Positions 28,513 to 58,290 of a stretch of DNA of 64,000 nt are shown piece after piece; the stretch's first letter is position 1; every line of letters begins with the position of its first letter. This DNA comes from Billgrantia tianxiuensis (lineage in GTDB: Bacteria; Pseudomonadota; Gammaproteobacteria; Pseudomonadales; Halomonadaceae). The stretch is taken from the NCBI RefSeq assembly GCF_009834345.1, contig NZ_CP035042.1, positions 620,001 to 684,000 of the forward strand, read 5' to 3'. A program made the position numbers and the translations under genes. The notes under the pieces were generated by a model. That model did not search any database, was not told the DNA's origin, and worked only from the letters and a program-made list of their open reading frames with translations.

Positions 28513-28836
28513 GAAATCTCGGTTCAGAGGGGTTGCAGCGCCGACAACGGGGCGGCGTGGGCGGCGGGCGACTTCATCTCGTTGGCGAACTATGGTATAA
28601 AGCCGCGCGCATTCCTGCAATCGTCGCCCGCCAGGCTCGCCTGCGGCCGGCATGACAGCGAAGGCGTCGGCAGCGGGCCGCACGAGGCACAATGATGCCC
28701 ACGGCGCCGGCCGTTAATCCAACAGCCTTGAAAACACACACGTACCGGCACATGGTCCCGGGTGCTGCCGCGGTTCTTCCCGGCGGTCGGATCCATGGGG
28801 TGCGTGGAGGCCTAACCCGATTTTCAGGAGTCATCC
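28513..28836. other. 324-bp divergent control region, map / rpsB
   Basis: Holds the rpsB promoter (28573-28601) and a ~230-nt rpsB leader rich in GC stems, plus whatever promoter serves map (not identified). No ORF is credible here. In E. coli the rpsB leader is the site of autoregulation by protein S2; the long leader and conserved gene order are compatible with that here, but the fold was not computed. Confidence 0.5.
28573..28601 (+). promoter_or_regulatory. Predicted rpsB-tsf promoter with extended -10 and GC discriminator
   Basis: TTCATC at 28573-28578, a 17-bp spacer, TATAAA at 28596-28601 preceded by TG-G (extended -10), then a GCCGCGCGC discriminator. A GC-rich discriminator is typical of stringently controlled ribosomal promoters. 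Confidence 0.6.
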
Positions 28837-55061: not shown

Positions 55062-55837
55062 CCCCAAGGACCCTGAGCTGCCAGGTGACGGCGGTGGAGG
55101 ACCTGACCCCCGACGTGTTCCGCGTACGCCTGGAAGGGCGCGCCGAGGCCATGGCCCATGAGCCGGGTCAGTATCTCGAGCTCAAGTTGGACGACGAGAC
55201 CTGGGTGCCGTTCTCCATTGCCAGTGCGCATGTCGGTGACGGTACGCTGGAACTGCATATCCAGCACTGGCCGGAGCGCGAGAACTCCGCCCGGCTGCGC
55301 GAACTGATCGTGGTGGCGCACCATCTGACGGTGCGACTGCCGGGCGGCGACTGCGTGCTGGATACCACTAGCCGGCGCCCGCTACTGTTGATTGCCGCCG
55401 GTACCGGTTTCGCCCAGTTGAAGGCGATCGTCGAGGCCTCGCTGCACGAGGCGCCTGAACGACCCATCGAGCTGTGGTGGGCCGCCCGCGAGCGGCGTGA
55501 TCTCTATCTCGAGAGCCTGCCGCGGCAGTGGGCCGAGCAGCACGAAAACGTGCGCTTCCATGTGGTCACCGAGGCAGTGCCGGAGCCGCCGGTGTCCGGT
55601 GAGCGCATTCAGGGCCACCTGGGCCGCATCGACCAGGCATTGGCCAGCGGGCTCGAAGACGTCAGTGGCTACGATGTCTATCTTTCCGGCTCGCCGGGCA
55701 TGGTCTATGCCTGTGTCGACGTACTGGCCTCGCTGGGTCTGGAGCCGAACCGGGTATTCTCCGACGTCTTCGCCTATGCACCGCGCCAGCCGCTGGTGCC
55801 CACCGCCGGGGTGTTGCGCAGGGGGAGTGCGCGGTGA
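55058..55837 (+). CDS. NAD(P)H-flavin reductase, Fre-like
   Basis: 259-residue ferredoxin-reductase-superfamily protein without iron-sulfur cysteines. FAD/FMN-binding segment [13 protein letters not shown] (usual R-x-Y-S replaced by VPFSIAS), [11 protein letters not shown], nicotinamide segment [17 protein letters not shown] and [17 protein letters not shown]. coli fre is also next to ubiD, where it may supply reduced flavin for prenyl-FMN cofactor formation (inference). Overlaps ubiD by 4 bp (ATGA) and folM by 4 bp (GTGA). Confidence 0.85.
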
Positions 55838-56547
55838 GCGCCTCGCCGATCCTGGTCACCGGGGGTGCCCAGCGCCTGGGGCGTCACTGCGCCGAGCGCC
55901 TGGCCGAGGATGGGCACCCGGTGATCATCAGTTATCGCCGCGAGCGCCCCGAGCTCGAGGCTCTGCGCAGCCGAGGCATCGTCACCCTGCAGGCGGATTT
56001 CTCCAGCGAGGCGGGAATTCTCGATTTCATCGCTAGGCTCAAGGACGAAACGGGTTCGTTGCGGGCCATCGTGCACAACGCCAGCGACTGGGCGCCGGAC
56101 AGCCAGGATGACGAGGCCGGGGCTGCTTTCGAGCGGCTGTTTCGCATCCACATGCAGGCCCCCTACCTGATCAACCTGCACTGCCGCGAGCTGCTCGAGG
56201 CGTGTGGTGAGCCCCAGCGCGACATTGTGCACATGACCGACTACGTGGTGCAGAAAGGTTCGAAGAAACATGCGGCCTACGCTGCCACCAAGGCGGGTCT
56301 GGCCAACCTGACGCTCTCGTTCGCAGCCATGTACGCTCCCCGGATCCAGGTCAATTCCATCGCACCGGCGCTGATCATGCTAGGCGAGGGCGACGACGAG
56401 GACTATGTCGAGAAGGCCAAGGCCAAGTCGGCCATGGGAATGGTGCCGGGGCCGGGTGTGATCTACCAGAGCCTGCGCTACCTGCTCGACAACCGCTACG
56501 TGACCGGAATCACCTTGCCGGTCGATGGCGGGCGCCACCTCCGTTAG
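55834..56547 (+). CDS. folM: Dihydromonapterin reductase FolM (SDR family)
   Basis: 237-residue short-chain dehydrogenase. Cofactor loop ITGG-type VTGGAQRLGRHCAERL with Arg after the glycines (NADPH preference), HNASDW, and catalytic Tyr/Lys in AAYAATKAGLANLT. Wording fits FolM, which reduces dihydromonapterin and weakly dihydrofolate, over generic fatty-acid SDRs. Starts with GTG at 55834. Its substrate is a tetrahydropterin cofactor used by phenylalanine hydroxylase in pseudomonads, a possible metabolic tie to the aromatic gene downstream (speculative). Confidence 0.85.
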   Translation: MSASPILVTGGAQRLGRHCAERLAEDGHPVIISYRRERPELEALRSRGIVTLQADFSSEAGILDFIARLKDETGSLRAIVHNASDWAPDSQDDEAGAAFERLFRIHMQAPYLINLHCRELLEACGEPQRDIVHMTDYVVQKGSKKHAAYAATKAGLANLTLSFAAMYAPRIQVNSIAPALIMLGEGDDEDYVEKAKAKSAMGMVPGPGVIYQSLRYLLDNRYVTGITLPVDGGRHLR

Positions 56548-56585: not shown

Positions 56586-56711
56586 ATGGCGAACGACCCT
56601 AATTTCAAGGATGACAGCGGACTGCTGTCGATCGTGCTGGGCCTGATGGTACTGGTCAGCATGACTGCCTTGCCCGCGACCATCGGCTGGTATCAGGTGA
56701 TCGCCGGCTGA
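56586..56711 (+). CDS. 41-residue single-span membrane microprotein
   Basis: Small ORF: a charged N-terminus (MANDPNFKDDSG), one hydrophobic helix of ~20 residues (LLSIVLGLMVLVSMTALPAT) and a short tail (IGWYQVIAG). ACGAGGT lies ~9 nt before the ATG. It lies 38 bp after folM and 64 bp before the first aromatic leader. Not recognised. Its coding nature is inferred from the coherent transmembrane composition and ribosome site. Confidence 0.6.
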   Translation: MANDPNFKDDSGLLSIVLGLMVLVSMTALPATIGWYQVIAG

Positions 56712-56721
56712 CAGGCGGCGC

Positions 56722-56750
56722 TTGCCAAGCCTGCGCCGATCCGGCACGAT
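56722..56750 (+). promoter_or_regulatory. Possible promoter of the aromatic leader / DAHP synthase transcript
   Basis: TTGCCA 56722-56727, a 17-bp spacer, CACGAT 56745-56750. The -10 is weak (3/6). A start near 56757 would leave ~19 nt before leader peptide 1, as in known attenuator transcripts. Confidence 0.35.
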
Positions 56751-56775
56751 GAAGCCAGAACATCGGGAGACGACC

Positions 56776-56907
56776 ATGACACCGAAACTGAGCCTGCCCC
56801 TTGCTGTGTCCTACCGCGCCCCGCGTGCGGTGGCTGCGCATGGCGCCGGCTTCGGTGGCCAGTATTGGTATTGGTTTAGTTCCGGTGTGCCGGCGGCTGG
56901 GTCCTGA
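56776..56907 (+). CDS. Aromatic leader peptide 1 (Y-W-Y-W-F attenuator peptide)
   Basis: 43-residue ORF with GGGAGA 5 nt before its ATG. The control codons are residues 30-34, Tyr-Trp-Tyr-Trp-Phe (56863-56877), five aromatic codons in a row; an earlier Phe (26) and Tyr (13) are isolated. The peptide is otherwise low-complexity Ala/Gly/Pro. Directly behind it come a strong hairpin that overlaps its stop codon (56884-56932) and a terminator (56953-56986), the standard layout of a ribosome-stalling attenuator. Scarcity of charged tRNA-Tyr, -Trp or -Phe should stall translation here. Too short for standard gene callers. Confidence 0.82.
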   Translation: MTPKLSLPLAVSYRAPRAVAAHGAGFGGQYWYWFSSGVPAAGS

Positions 56908-56932
56908 GCGAGGACAGCCGCGAAGGCACACC
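56884..56932 (+). promoter_or_regulatory. Pause/anti-antiterminator hairpin of the attenuator
   Basis: Three stacked stems: GGTGTGCC 56884-56891 with GGCACACC 56925-56932, GCGGCT with AGCCGC, and GTCCT 56901-56905 with AGGAC 56911-56915. The 5' arm lies within the last codons of leader 1, so a ribosome stalled at the Tyr/Trp codons would keep it open. Confidence 0.65.
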
Positions 56933-56937
56933 CTAAC

Positions 56938-56990
56938 CGGGTTGCCTCCCATAAAACCCCCGGTCGGCAACCCGACCGGGGGTTTTGCGT
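56938..56990 (+). terminator. Attenuator terminator with competing antiterminator
   Basis: Terminator: AAAACCCCCGGTCGG 56953-56967, loop CAAC, CCGACCGGGGGTTTT 56972-56986, fifteen perfect pairs. Competing pairing: CGGGTTGCC 56938-56946 is perfectly complementary to GGCAACCCG 56966-56974, which spans the terminator loop and both inner arms. Only one of the two can form. Confidence 0.8.
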
Positions 56991-57037
56991 TGGTCGCCCG
57001 GTGTTCGCCCGATACCATCAACCAGAGGAGATGCGCC

Positions 57038-57202
57038 ATGACCGCACGCCGCGCCACTTTCGCCGCCTACGCCCATCACGCCTATTACGGCTGGGACTAT
57101 GGCTGGCGATTTAGCGCCGCGCGGTCGGTCCAGTGCGCCACCTCCGACCGTGAGATGACCGGTGGCATGACGACACGATGTTTGCCGACCTCACGGAGTT
57201 GA
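57038..57202 (+). CDS. Aromatic leader peptide 2
   Basis: 54-residue ORF with AGAGGAG 7 nt before its ATG, a better ribosome site than many genes here. Aromatic codons cluster at residues 8-25: Phe8, Tyr11, Tyr16, Tyr17, Trp19, Tyr21, Trp23, Phe25, plus two His (13, 14). It ends with TGA at 57200-57202, 5 nt before the DAHP synthase ATG, so its translation can be coupled to that gene. It contains the DAHP synthase ribosome site within its last codons. No T-tract terminator follows it, so control is probably at translation. Confidence 0.75.
   Translation: MTARRATFAAYAHHAYYGWDYGWRFSAARSVQCATSDREMTGGMTTRCLPTSRS
57122..57196 (+). promoter_or_regulatory. Alternative hairpins that can mask the DAHP synthase ribosome site
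   Basis: Hairpin X: CGGTCGG 57122-57128 with CCGACCG 57144-57150. Hairpin Y: CCGTGAG 57148-57154 with CTCACGG 57190-57196, which covers part of the CGGAG ribosome site. X and Y share bases 57148-57150 and so exclude each other. A third pairing, GCCACC 57137-57142 with GGTGGC 57161-57166, also competes. Fold energies were not computed. Confidence 0.5.
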
Positions 57203-57207
57203 CTATC

Positions 57208-58290
57208 ATGAACGCCCCCGCATCTCTTGCCCAACGCCTGGCCGATGACCATGCCGATCTCGATATTTCCCGTGCCAGCCGGGTCGAAATGACGCTACCC
57301 ACGCCCGGCGAGCTGCGTCGCCGACTGCCTGTGGCGCCCCTCGTGGCCGAACGCCTGCACAGCCAGCGCCGCGCCATCCAGGACATCGTCAGCGGCCGTG
57401 ACGACCGCATGCTAGTGGTGGTGGGGCCCTGCTCGATCCATGACCCTCTGGCTGCCCTGGAGTATGCTCACCGTCTGGCCGAGTTGGTGCCGCAGGTAAG
57501 TGATCGCCTGCTGCCGGTCATGCGGGTCTATGTGGAGAAACCGCGTACCACGGTAGGCTGGAAAGGACTTGCCTACGACCCTGACCTGGACGGCAGCGGC
57601 GACATGGCCCGCGGCCTGCACCTGTCGCGCCATTTGATGCACGAAGTCGCGACGCTTGGCTTGCCGGTGGCCACCGAAGTGCTGCAGCCGATGCTGGCCG
57701 CCTATCTCGATGACTTGCTGGCCTGGGTTGCCATCGGTGCGCGTACCACCGAATCGCAGCTGCATCGCGAACTCGCTAGTGGTCTCGAGGCCGCGGTGGG
57801 TTTCAAGAACGCCACCAGTGGCGACGTACAGGTTGCAGTGGACGCCATTCGTGCGGCAGCGCATCCGCACCAGCACTTCGGTCTCGACGACCAGGGCCGC
57901 CCGGCGCTGCGTGAGACCTCGGGCAATCGACATGCTCACGTGGTGCTGCGGGGAGGCCGCCACGGCCCTAATCACGACAGTGTTTCGGTCGGCGAGGCCC
58001 GCCGGACGCTGGAACGGGCCGGGTTGCCCGCGCGCTTGATGGTCGACTGCAGCCATGCCAATGCGTGCAAGGATCATCGGCGCCAGGCCGAGGTGTTGCG
58101 TGACGTGGTGGCGCAGCGCCTGCGTGGCGAAACGGCCCTGATGGGGCTGATGCTCGAGAGTCACCTGGAAGAAGGGCGCCAGGAACTTGCTCCTGGCACG
58201 CTGCGCCATGGCGTCTCGGTGACCGACCCCTGCCTGGGCTGGCAGGAGACCGAGGCGCTGCTGCTGGAAGCCGCCGGGCGGCTGCGCTGA
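57208..58290 (+). CDS. aroF: 3-deoxy-7-phosphoheptulonate (DAHP) synthase, class I
   Basis: Condenses PEP and erythrose-4-P, the entry step of the shikimate pathway. 360 residues with the AroF/G/H landmarks: VVVGPCSIHDPLAALEYA (~residue 71), MRVYVEKPRTTVGWKGL and DPDLDGS, IGARTTESQLHRELASGL, GFKNATSGDVQVA, and the metal Cys/His segment VDCSHANACKDH near residue 270. Which aromatic acid inhibits it cannot be read with certainty; the symbol is by family. The ATG at 57208 has CGGAG 8 nt upstream; an in-frame ATG at 57178 lies inside leader 2 and is rejected. Expression is evidently set by the two leaders before it. Confidence 0.92.
   Translation: MNAPASLAQRLADDHADLDISRASRVEMTLPTPGELRRRLPVAPLVAERLHSQRRAIQDIVSGRDDRMLVVVGPCSIHDPLAALEYAHRLAELVPQVSDRLLPVMRVYVEKPRTTVGWKGLAYDPDLDGSGDMARGLHLSRHLMHEVATLGLPVATEVLQPMLAAYLDDLLAWVAIGARTTESQLHRELASGLEAAVGFKNATSGDVQVAVDAIRAAAHPHQHFGLDDQGRPALRETSGNRHAHVVLRGGRHGPNHDSVSVGEARRTLERAGLPARLMVDCSHANACKDHRRQAEVLRDVVAQRLRGETALMGLMLESHLEEGRQELAPGTLRHGVSVTDPCLGWQETEALLLEAAGRLR

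Follow-up and report, generated by a model that had tools for sequence, protein, structure and literature searches.

The stretch of DNA analysed here (the window) comprises 64,000 nucleotides (nt) of Billgrantia tianxiuensis (contig NZ_CP035042.1, positions 620,001 to 684,000), whose genome is a single contig of 5.0 Mb. It carries a type I gene for 3-deoxy-D-arabino-heptulosonate 7-phosphate (DAHP) synthase, preceded on the same strand by two short open reading frames (ORFs), leader 1 and leader 2, with an intrinsic terminator between them (Table 1). A first-pass annotation had described two such ORFs, each with a ribosome site and a cluster of aromatic codons, and all of these elements are present in the sequence. 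The leader 1 peptide has the aromatic end ..QYWYWFSSGVPAAGS and the leader 2 peptide the aromatic run ..YYGWDYGWRFS.., while the TGA of leader 2 (57202) lies 5 nt ahead of the ATG of the DAHP synthase gene (57208). Neither peptide matched a Pfam or NCBIfam family. We consider it likely that the two leaders place a single gene under two tiers of ribosome-sensed control, transcription attenuation and then control of translation.

Conservation of the leader pair

Conservation was examined in a set composed of the window and the best 80 of 251 confirmed relatives, all of them Halomonadaceae by name; the set thus covers the near end of the family. The nearest named locus among these 80, from Billgrantia zhangzhouensis, encodes a DAHP synthase 97% identical to that of the window. 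Leader 2, found by its peptide, is kept in 79 of the 81 loci (the window and 78 of the 80 named ones). The two others are L034, with 20 nt of upstream DNA only, and L036, where leader 2 has been lost. A script matched leader 1 in 74/81 loci, and reading reveals it in L033, L039, L042, L046 and L064; the DNA of L014 and L034 is too short to hold it. Together with compensatory changes in hairpin A:B (see below), these counts answer favourably the alignment across Halomonadaceae that had been proposed as a check of the leader pair. Locus L036 (upstream of 3001) belongs to Halomonas urumqiensis, whose leader 1 continues beyond GVPA; this natural deletion of leader 2 would be useful as a control.

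Leader 1 peptides close with a run of aromatic residues, most often in the form ..YWF(S/T/I)xGVPxA.., and leader 2 peptides end in the pattern ..Y..W-R-F-S-x-x-R-S-x-x-x-A-T-S-D-R-x-x-x-G-G... A ribosome site precedes the leader 2 ATG in 78/78 loci, a count which is partly circular as the ATG was picked by its best site. In the N-terminal part of leader 2, 937 of 2073 single-base codon changes are synonymous; that of leader 1 shows little coding constraint (177/586).

Aromatic clusters could in principle arise by chance in GC-rich spacer DNA. Among 306 first-ATG ORFs of 20-70 amino acids (aa) on both strands of the 64-kb window, two contain at least 6 aromatics in 12 residues, namely leader 1 and one other; leader 2 falls outside this set, since its frame opens further upstream. 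The single additional ORF is what chance has in its favour. The explanation is refuted by a reading frame, codons and base pairs that have been conserved across two bacterial families, and its probability appears negligible. Judged from the loci compared, conservation is the decisive evidence for the leader pair.

A promoter-like site agreeing with at least 8 of 12 consensus positions was found within 95 nt 5' of leader 1 in 67/73 loci (a raw count, uncontrolled by shuffles), and the form TTGCCA-17-CA(C/G)GAT recurs in 23 of the 24 rows listed. A promoter scanner gave no site at 56722; the one that it did report, at 57182-57209, overlaps the last part of leader 2 and the start of the gene. A simple terminator scan of the leader region listed none. 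CGATGT was also tried as the DAHP synthase start and was dropped, being in frame in only 38/79 loci; an MNA start with CGGAG was used instead.

Table 1. Features of the leader region and the DAHP synthase gene (window coordinates)
Feature	Position	Strand	Basis or detail
Promoter-like TTGCCA, 17-nt spacer, CACGAT	56722-56727, 56745-56750	+	consensus match, recurs in relatives
Leader 1 ORF, 43 aa, MTPKLSLPLAVSYRAPRAVAAHGAGFGGQYWYWFSSGVPAAGS	56776-56907 (ATG to TGA)	+	GGGAG ribosome site 5' of ATG
Leader 1 sensor codons TAT TGG TAT TGG TTT (Tyr-Trp-Tyr-Trp-Phe)	56863-56877	+	
Hairpin A:B	56884-56932	+	arms GGTGTGCC 56884-56891 and GGCACACC 56925-56932; covariation
Competing hairpin B:C (AGGCA..TGCCT)	56924-56947	+	pairing and occlusion folding
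Putative antiterminator C:E	56939-56973	+	GGGTTGCC 56939-56946 with GGCAACCC 56966-56973; would block terminator tip
Intrinsic terminator AAAACCCCCGGTCGG-CAAC-CCGACCGGGGGTTTT	stem 56953-56967/56972-56986	+	
Leader 2 ORF, 54 aa, MTARRATFAAYAHHAYYGWDYGWRFSAARSVQCATSDREMTGGMTTRCLPTSRS	57038-57202 (ATG to TGA)	+	GAGGAG ribosome site 57025-57030
Leader 2 core TGGCGATTTAGC (Trp-Arg-Phe-Ser)	57104-57115	+	
Pseudoknot stem S1	57120-57152	+	arms CGCGGTCGG 57120-57128 and CCGACCGTG 57144-57152
Pseudoknot stem S2	57137-57166	+	arms GCCACC 57137-57142 and GGTGGC 57161-57166
Alternative helix S3	57148-57196	+	CCGTGAG 57148-57154 with CTCACGG 57190-57196; overlaps gene ribosome site, exclusive with S1
DAHP synthase ribosome site CGGAG	57194-57198	+	
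Type I DAHP synthase gene (aroF/G/H family)	57208-58290	+	TIGR00034 437 bits, PF00793 254 bits

Leader 1 and the Rfam family P15

The 151-nt leader 1 RNA, terminator included, folds better than 200/200 shuffles (z -5.6). The intrinsic terminator that the first-pass annotation had placed at the end of leader 1 is a strong one. The attenuator was aligned in 38 sequences from 79 loci, after 8 that the script could not delimit and near-duplicates had been dropped. Arm B was taken as the best partner of arm A within about 50 nt. The two arms are complementary at all 8 positions in 33/38 sequences and at 7 or more in 38/38, and at position 3 the pairs T-A, C-G, G-C and A-T all occur. We also folded only the RNA ahead of a ribosome, assuming a 16-nt ribosome front and leaving out L029 and L037, where C was not found. 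When the A site held the codon preceding the Phe codon, A:B exceeded 0.5 in 26/36 loci and B:C formed in 9; when it held the Phe or the stop codon, B:C formed in 36/36. The start of arm A and the leader 1 stop are separated by 21 nt in 32/36 loci. Thus, the locus combines a translatable leader carrying codons of the pathway, an intrinsic terminator before the gene and mutually exclusive helices with covariation. At the level of sequence comparison, the assignment of leader 1 as a ribosome-mediated transcription attenuator of the trp/phe type is well supported.

Several observations weigh against this assignment or narrow it. Arm B was selected by its complementarity to A, and A combined with a foreign B, from a sequence with another A, is perfect in 27%. 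C:E is perfect in 24/38 sequences and imperfect in the other 14. Under the same stall assumption and the same ribosome front, 10/36 loci do not form A:B. Moreover, the final Phe codon of leader 1 gives the B:C outcome in these foldings, and Phe sensing may be absent there. The earlier proposal that both leaders read all three aromatic amino acids is upheld in part: comparison within Halomonadaceae and a second family supports aromatic reading, but Phe may not be among the amino acids sensed by leader 1.

The trpL and pheL leaders are ribosome-mediated transcription attenuators of aromatic operons. Like them, leader 1 is short and contains clustered regulatory codons, and it comes with alternative hairpins, an intrinsic terminator and a downstream gene for the biosynthesis of the sensed amino acids. 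In contrast to these leaders, its codons lie 5' of the first arm and stalling is predicted to favour A:B (a three-layer switch), mainly Tyr and Trp are read, for the shared first enzyme, and a second leader comes after.

Beyond the first-pass annotation, leader 1 proved similar to P15 (RF00627), which Rfam files only as a Pseudomonas small RNA (sRNA). The window matches it with 39.4 bits (E 2.8e-6), a score below the gathering cut-off of 70 and the best match in the whole genome. Genomic place and three-hairpin plan are alike and the terminator stem is nearly identical; the Rfam lines shown for P15 mention neither a leader peptide nor aro. In a class-wide sample, P15 was matched at E 1e-5 in 4/369 genomes, and in the three besides that of the window (G312, G321 and G428) it sits directly 5' of a DAHP synthase match. 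Across the family of G312, P15 was matched in 78/109 genomes, 75 of them above the cut-off, and across its order, at 1e-6, in 3/56. We examined a selection of these matches, about 30 listed by the tool and 18 chosen from other genera or lower scores; the 49 distinct P15-type loci include L162, which was fetched by protein. A DAHP synthase motif is present in 48/49 (L233 has none), and the DAHP synthase is on the P15 strand in 30/30 listed rows. Most simply, these arrangements suggest that P15 is the attenuator of a DAHP synthase gene. The filing as sRNA, and the stable short RNA that a terminated leader would make, would also suit a free, trans-acting small RNA with an incidental gene neighbour. 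The near-constant association with DAHP synthase on the same strand, and the alternative helices and aromatic codons, which suit attenuation, render that explanation very improbable.

This second family shares leader 2: among the P15-type loci a script found it in 44/48, and reading added L228. The succession of leader 1, terminator, core-bearing leader 2 and DAHP synthase is thus the same in 45/48. Leader 2 is lacking in L194 (from another family), L230 and L232, and no WRF leader 2 was found between terminator and gene in L164 and L166, P15-bearing loci of another family. G015, from a genus of the window's own family, has a poorer leader 2, YGWRFN with TGGCGATTTAAC. A segment RSGQPAASDR..GG, similar to that of the pseudoknot region in Halomonadaceae, is found in five P15-type loci (L195, L201, L202, L203 and L205).

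Some further features of the P15-type loci (L162, L193-L241) were recorded. The leader 2 stop is TAG in 41/44 rows, a CGA codon shortly before it is invariant in 21 aligned loci, and a hairpin with a few double-sided changes stands before the ribosome site of the gene. Minus-strand matches to P15, NsiR1 and Xoo8, one of them reaching into leader 2, were taken as matches of the palindromic terminator.

Among the matches listed from the open-licence literature, neither P15 as an aro attenuator nor tandem aromatic leaders came up, which is no proof of their absence in print. The main text of a study on Pseudomonas 3' ends made no mention of P15 or aroF (PMC8297930), and the terms tried gave no match in the uORF4u article (PMC10219788).

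Core, pseudoknot and possible gene-start coupling of leader 2

Leader 2 was identified via its amino acids (Arg-Phe or Trp-Arg-Phe) and not via its codons. In Halomonadaceae the core is written with CGA in 79/79 loci, TTT in 79/79 and TGG in 78 (GGG in one), and in P15-type loci with TGG CGA TTT in 44/44, counts that are not independent as the loci are mutually related. In adjacent genes, the share of CGA among Arg codons is 3.8% for either set, and that of TTT among Phe codons is 12.4% (Halomonadaceae) or 9.7% (P15-type). The Tyr codons 5' of the core alternate freely between TAT and TAC, Tyr being kept. As judged by this codon usage, the core is conserved at the nucleotide level and the Tyr codons at the amino acid level. 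Of the 2363 leader 2 codons located beyond the core in Halomonadaceae, 8 are aromatic (0.3%), compared to 3.1% in the gene. TGGCGATTTA was found twice in the genome. A model of the core, R1, run on the 369 class genomes, recovered the window's genome, one other genome of the family (not G015) and a weak place in G399, which lies inside a 443-aa ORF. With stricter filters R1 did not recover G312, whose leader 2 was recognised by reading only.

Downstream of the core, Halomonadaceae sequences can form an H-type pseudoknot of 9 S1 and 6 S2 crossing pairs, with 97.8% of cells paired in 52 sequences. Double-sided changes affect 5 pairs and 23 cells, and the score of 0.157 compares with at most 0.055 in slid controls (up to 4 pairs, 8 cells) and 0.106 (sd 0.006) in shuffles, of which 0/500 reach 0.157. 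For 13 pairs chosen by eye, the score was 0.086 compared with at most 0.036. Core and pseudoknot together extend the first-pass annotation, pointing to nucleotide-level conservation beyond the needs of a leader peptide. A nested RNAalifold alternative, pairing the core with GGTGGC, showed no double-sided change and was dropped, while S2 stays paired by a double change where the nested helix has its one broken A-U. A programmed frameshift pseudoknot was also dropped: the gene-to-leader offset varies (-4, 2, 3, 4, 5, 6, 7, 8 and others), and no slippery heptamer was seen by eye at the core. Between 56700 and 57300, the Rfam matches with E of 1 or lower were P15, P37, NsiR1 and Xoo8 only, with no riboswitch family.

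In 66/73 Halomonadaceae loci (6 loci lacking an MNA start were dropped), the distance between the leader 2 stop and the gene ATG is within -4 to +8 nt, the arrangement looked for in translational coupling, which bears out the earlier statement that leader 2 abuts the gene. Mycobacterial polycysteine leaders likewise have a leader stop at the gene start and translational coupling; they differ by having a single leader and Cys codons. Helix S3 links the flank of S1 to bases that precede or cover the CGGAG of the gene, and its coexistence with S1 is impossible. In the GTGAG subgroup, which includes the window (32 loci), S3 scored 12.75 compared with 7.13 for the site regions of other subgroups and 8.5 (sd 1.8) for gene windows. 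In the GTAGC subgroup (21 loci) the corresponding values were 9.95, 7.82 and 8.9, and a third of the gene windows score just as high. In the window, S1 folds 8.3 kcal/mol better than S3, and S3 rises in the folding once the ribosome is beyond the Trp codon.

The case for a translation tier has its weaknesses. Folding of the leader 2 region is weak (z -1.7, 10/200 shuffles as good). Among the 23 double-sided cells, 16 reflect one clade-level change from C-G to U-A, in a pair added after RNAalifold had pointed to it in the same alignment. The 13 by-eye pairs give 3 pairs and 4 cells, and two slid controls equal these counts, although not the score or the pairing. S3 is clearly supported in 32/67 loci, weakly above chance in 21 and at chance in 14 (12/79 loci were dropped for gene-start reasons). 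Its count in a fixed register was equal to shuffles, and was later re-examined with subgroup registers. The swap from S1 to S3 occurred in 5/10 loci, in foldings that do not model pseudoknots, and the predicted openness of the ribosome site was almost constant across ribosome positions. In P15-type loci, the leader 2 stop is 33-48 nt 5' of the gene in 36/44 (by a crude choice of start) and the pseudoknot is missing from most; the second tier therefore cannot be identical there.

Alternatively, leader 1 could be the sole sensor of aromatic tRNA, leader 2 being mainly a coupling ORF that feeds ribosomes to the gene and shields the spacer RNA, with its aromatic codons secondary. The abutting stop in Halomonadaceae fits such a role, as do an S3 that is not universal and a varying aromatic content (3 to 7 over WRF and the 12 codons ahead of its Trp). 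We nevertheless find it rather unlikely: Tyr and Trp are enriched in two families despite changing spacing, aromatics are nearly gone after the core in Halomonadaceae, the stop is away from the gene in most P15-type loci, and the frozen core and pseudoknot would be left unexplained.

Core and pseudoknot might instead be an RNA element in its own right, such as a small aptamer or a protein or RNase site, incidentally read through as a leader. This would account for CGA and TTT being invariant despite their minority status in the gene, for the same core in all P15-type loci having leader 2 and for the pseudoknot covariation, and the GA-UUU of the core resembles an RNase E site. The conserved reading frame, Tyr codons and ribosome site argue for a translated leader, however, the Rfam hits include no riboswitch family, and most P15-type loci have the core but not the pseudoknot, hence no common fold is seen. 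We regard this explanation as quite unlikely.

A composite is somewhat easier to accept, though on balance still unlikely. Leader 2 would be a Tyr/Trp leader fused to a sequence-specific RNA element with the core TGGCGATTT, whose letters have hardly changed in two families. Its mechanism would differ from simple tRNA-dependent stalling; examples are stalling timed by the codon pair CGA-UUU, a site for a protein or RNase, and a pseudoknot that binds a ligand. If so, transcription attenuation and a new kind of translational gate would be placed in series.

Proposed two-tier control and its implications

The best reading of the locus remains two-tier control in which a shortage of charged aromatic tRNAs relieves both tiers. 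In the first tier, leader 1 would be translated while it is transcribed. With charged Tyr- or Trp-tRNA scarce, the ribosome would stall at the TAT or TGG codons 5' of arm A and A:B would form; C would be left free to pair with E, and the terminator would be unable to nucleate, resulting in read-through. With ample aromatics, the ribosome would reach the stop, which lies 21 nt beyond the first base of A, and cover A, so that B:C and then the terminator form. In the second tier, leader 2 would be translated on the read-through transcripts. Stalling at its Tyr or Trp codons would keep the S1/S2 pseudoknot folded and S3 excluded, and DAHP synthase would be translated. A ribosome moving past the core would melt S1, enabling S3 to cover the ribosome site of the gene, and would itself terminate right at the gene start. 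The two-tier logic of the first-pass annotation thus holds well for transcription. For translation, the structure is conserved and the ribosome-site helix is clear in 32/67 loci only; the parts lie in place, and the direction in which they would act is plausible.

Partial parallels exist in the literature searched. In the vmlR leader of Bacillus subtilis, stalling on an upstream ORF (uORF) prevents an anti-antiterminator and the antiterminator forms (PMC9226507); it shares the three-layer switch and the attenuation of one gene at the levels of both transcription and translation, but has a single uORF and senses antibiotics, not charged tRNA. The gene ermB, with ermBL and ermBL2, likewise has two leader ORFs before one gene and translational attenuation; it is, in contrast, an antibiotic-induced resistance gene, and the abstract gives no transcription terminator tier (PMC8274638). 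The uORFC-13-1 motif 5' of Acholeplasma aroF also places a uORF and a terminator before a DAHP synthase gene, but with one uORF, a run of Phe codons and in unrelated bacteria (PMC8632094).

Other features were noted in the window and its genome. A dihydromonapterin reductase gene (NF005066, 339 bits) lies at 55834-56547, 5' of the leaders, and a 41-aa ORF, MANDPNFKDDSGLLSIVLGLMVLVSMTALPATIGWYQVIAG, matching no family, at 56586-56711, right before the promoter-like site. The Rfam t44 RNA was matched with 73 bits at 28717-28816. The same genome contains a second DAHP synthase paralogue, 49% identical (G000:C1:1913196-1914194), and no ORF with at least 5 aromatics in 12 residues was found in the 800 nt 5' of its GPCS motif.

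The finding gives a likely function to the Rfam 'sRNA' P15. The committing step of aromatic synthesis would be gated by two serial leaders in two bacterial families, offering a natural case in which transcription attenuation and leader-controlled translation of one gene are genetically separable. DAHP synthase is also commonly engineered for the production of aromatics, and Halomonas serves as a host in industry. The TGGCGATTT core, kept via minority codons, also raises the question of what leaders can encode besides amino acid identity.

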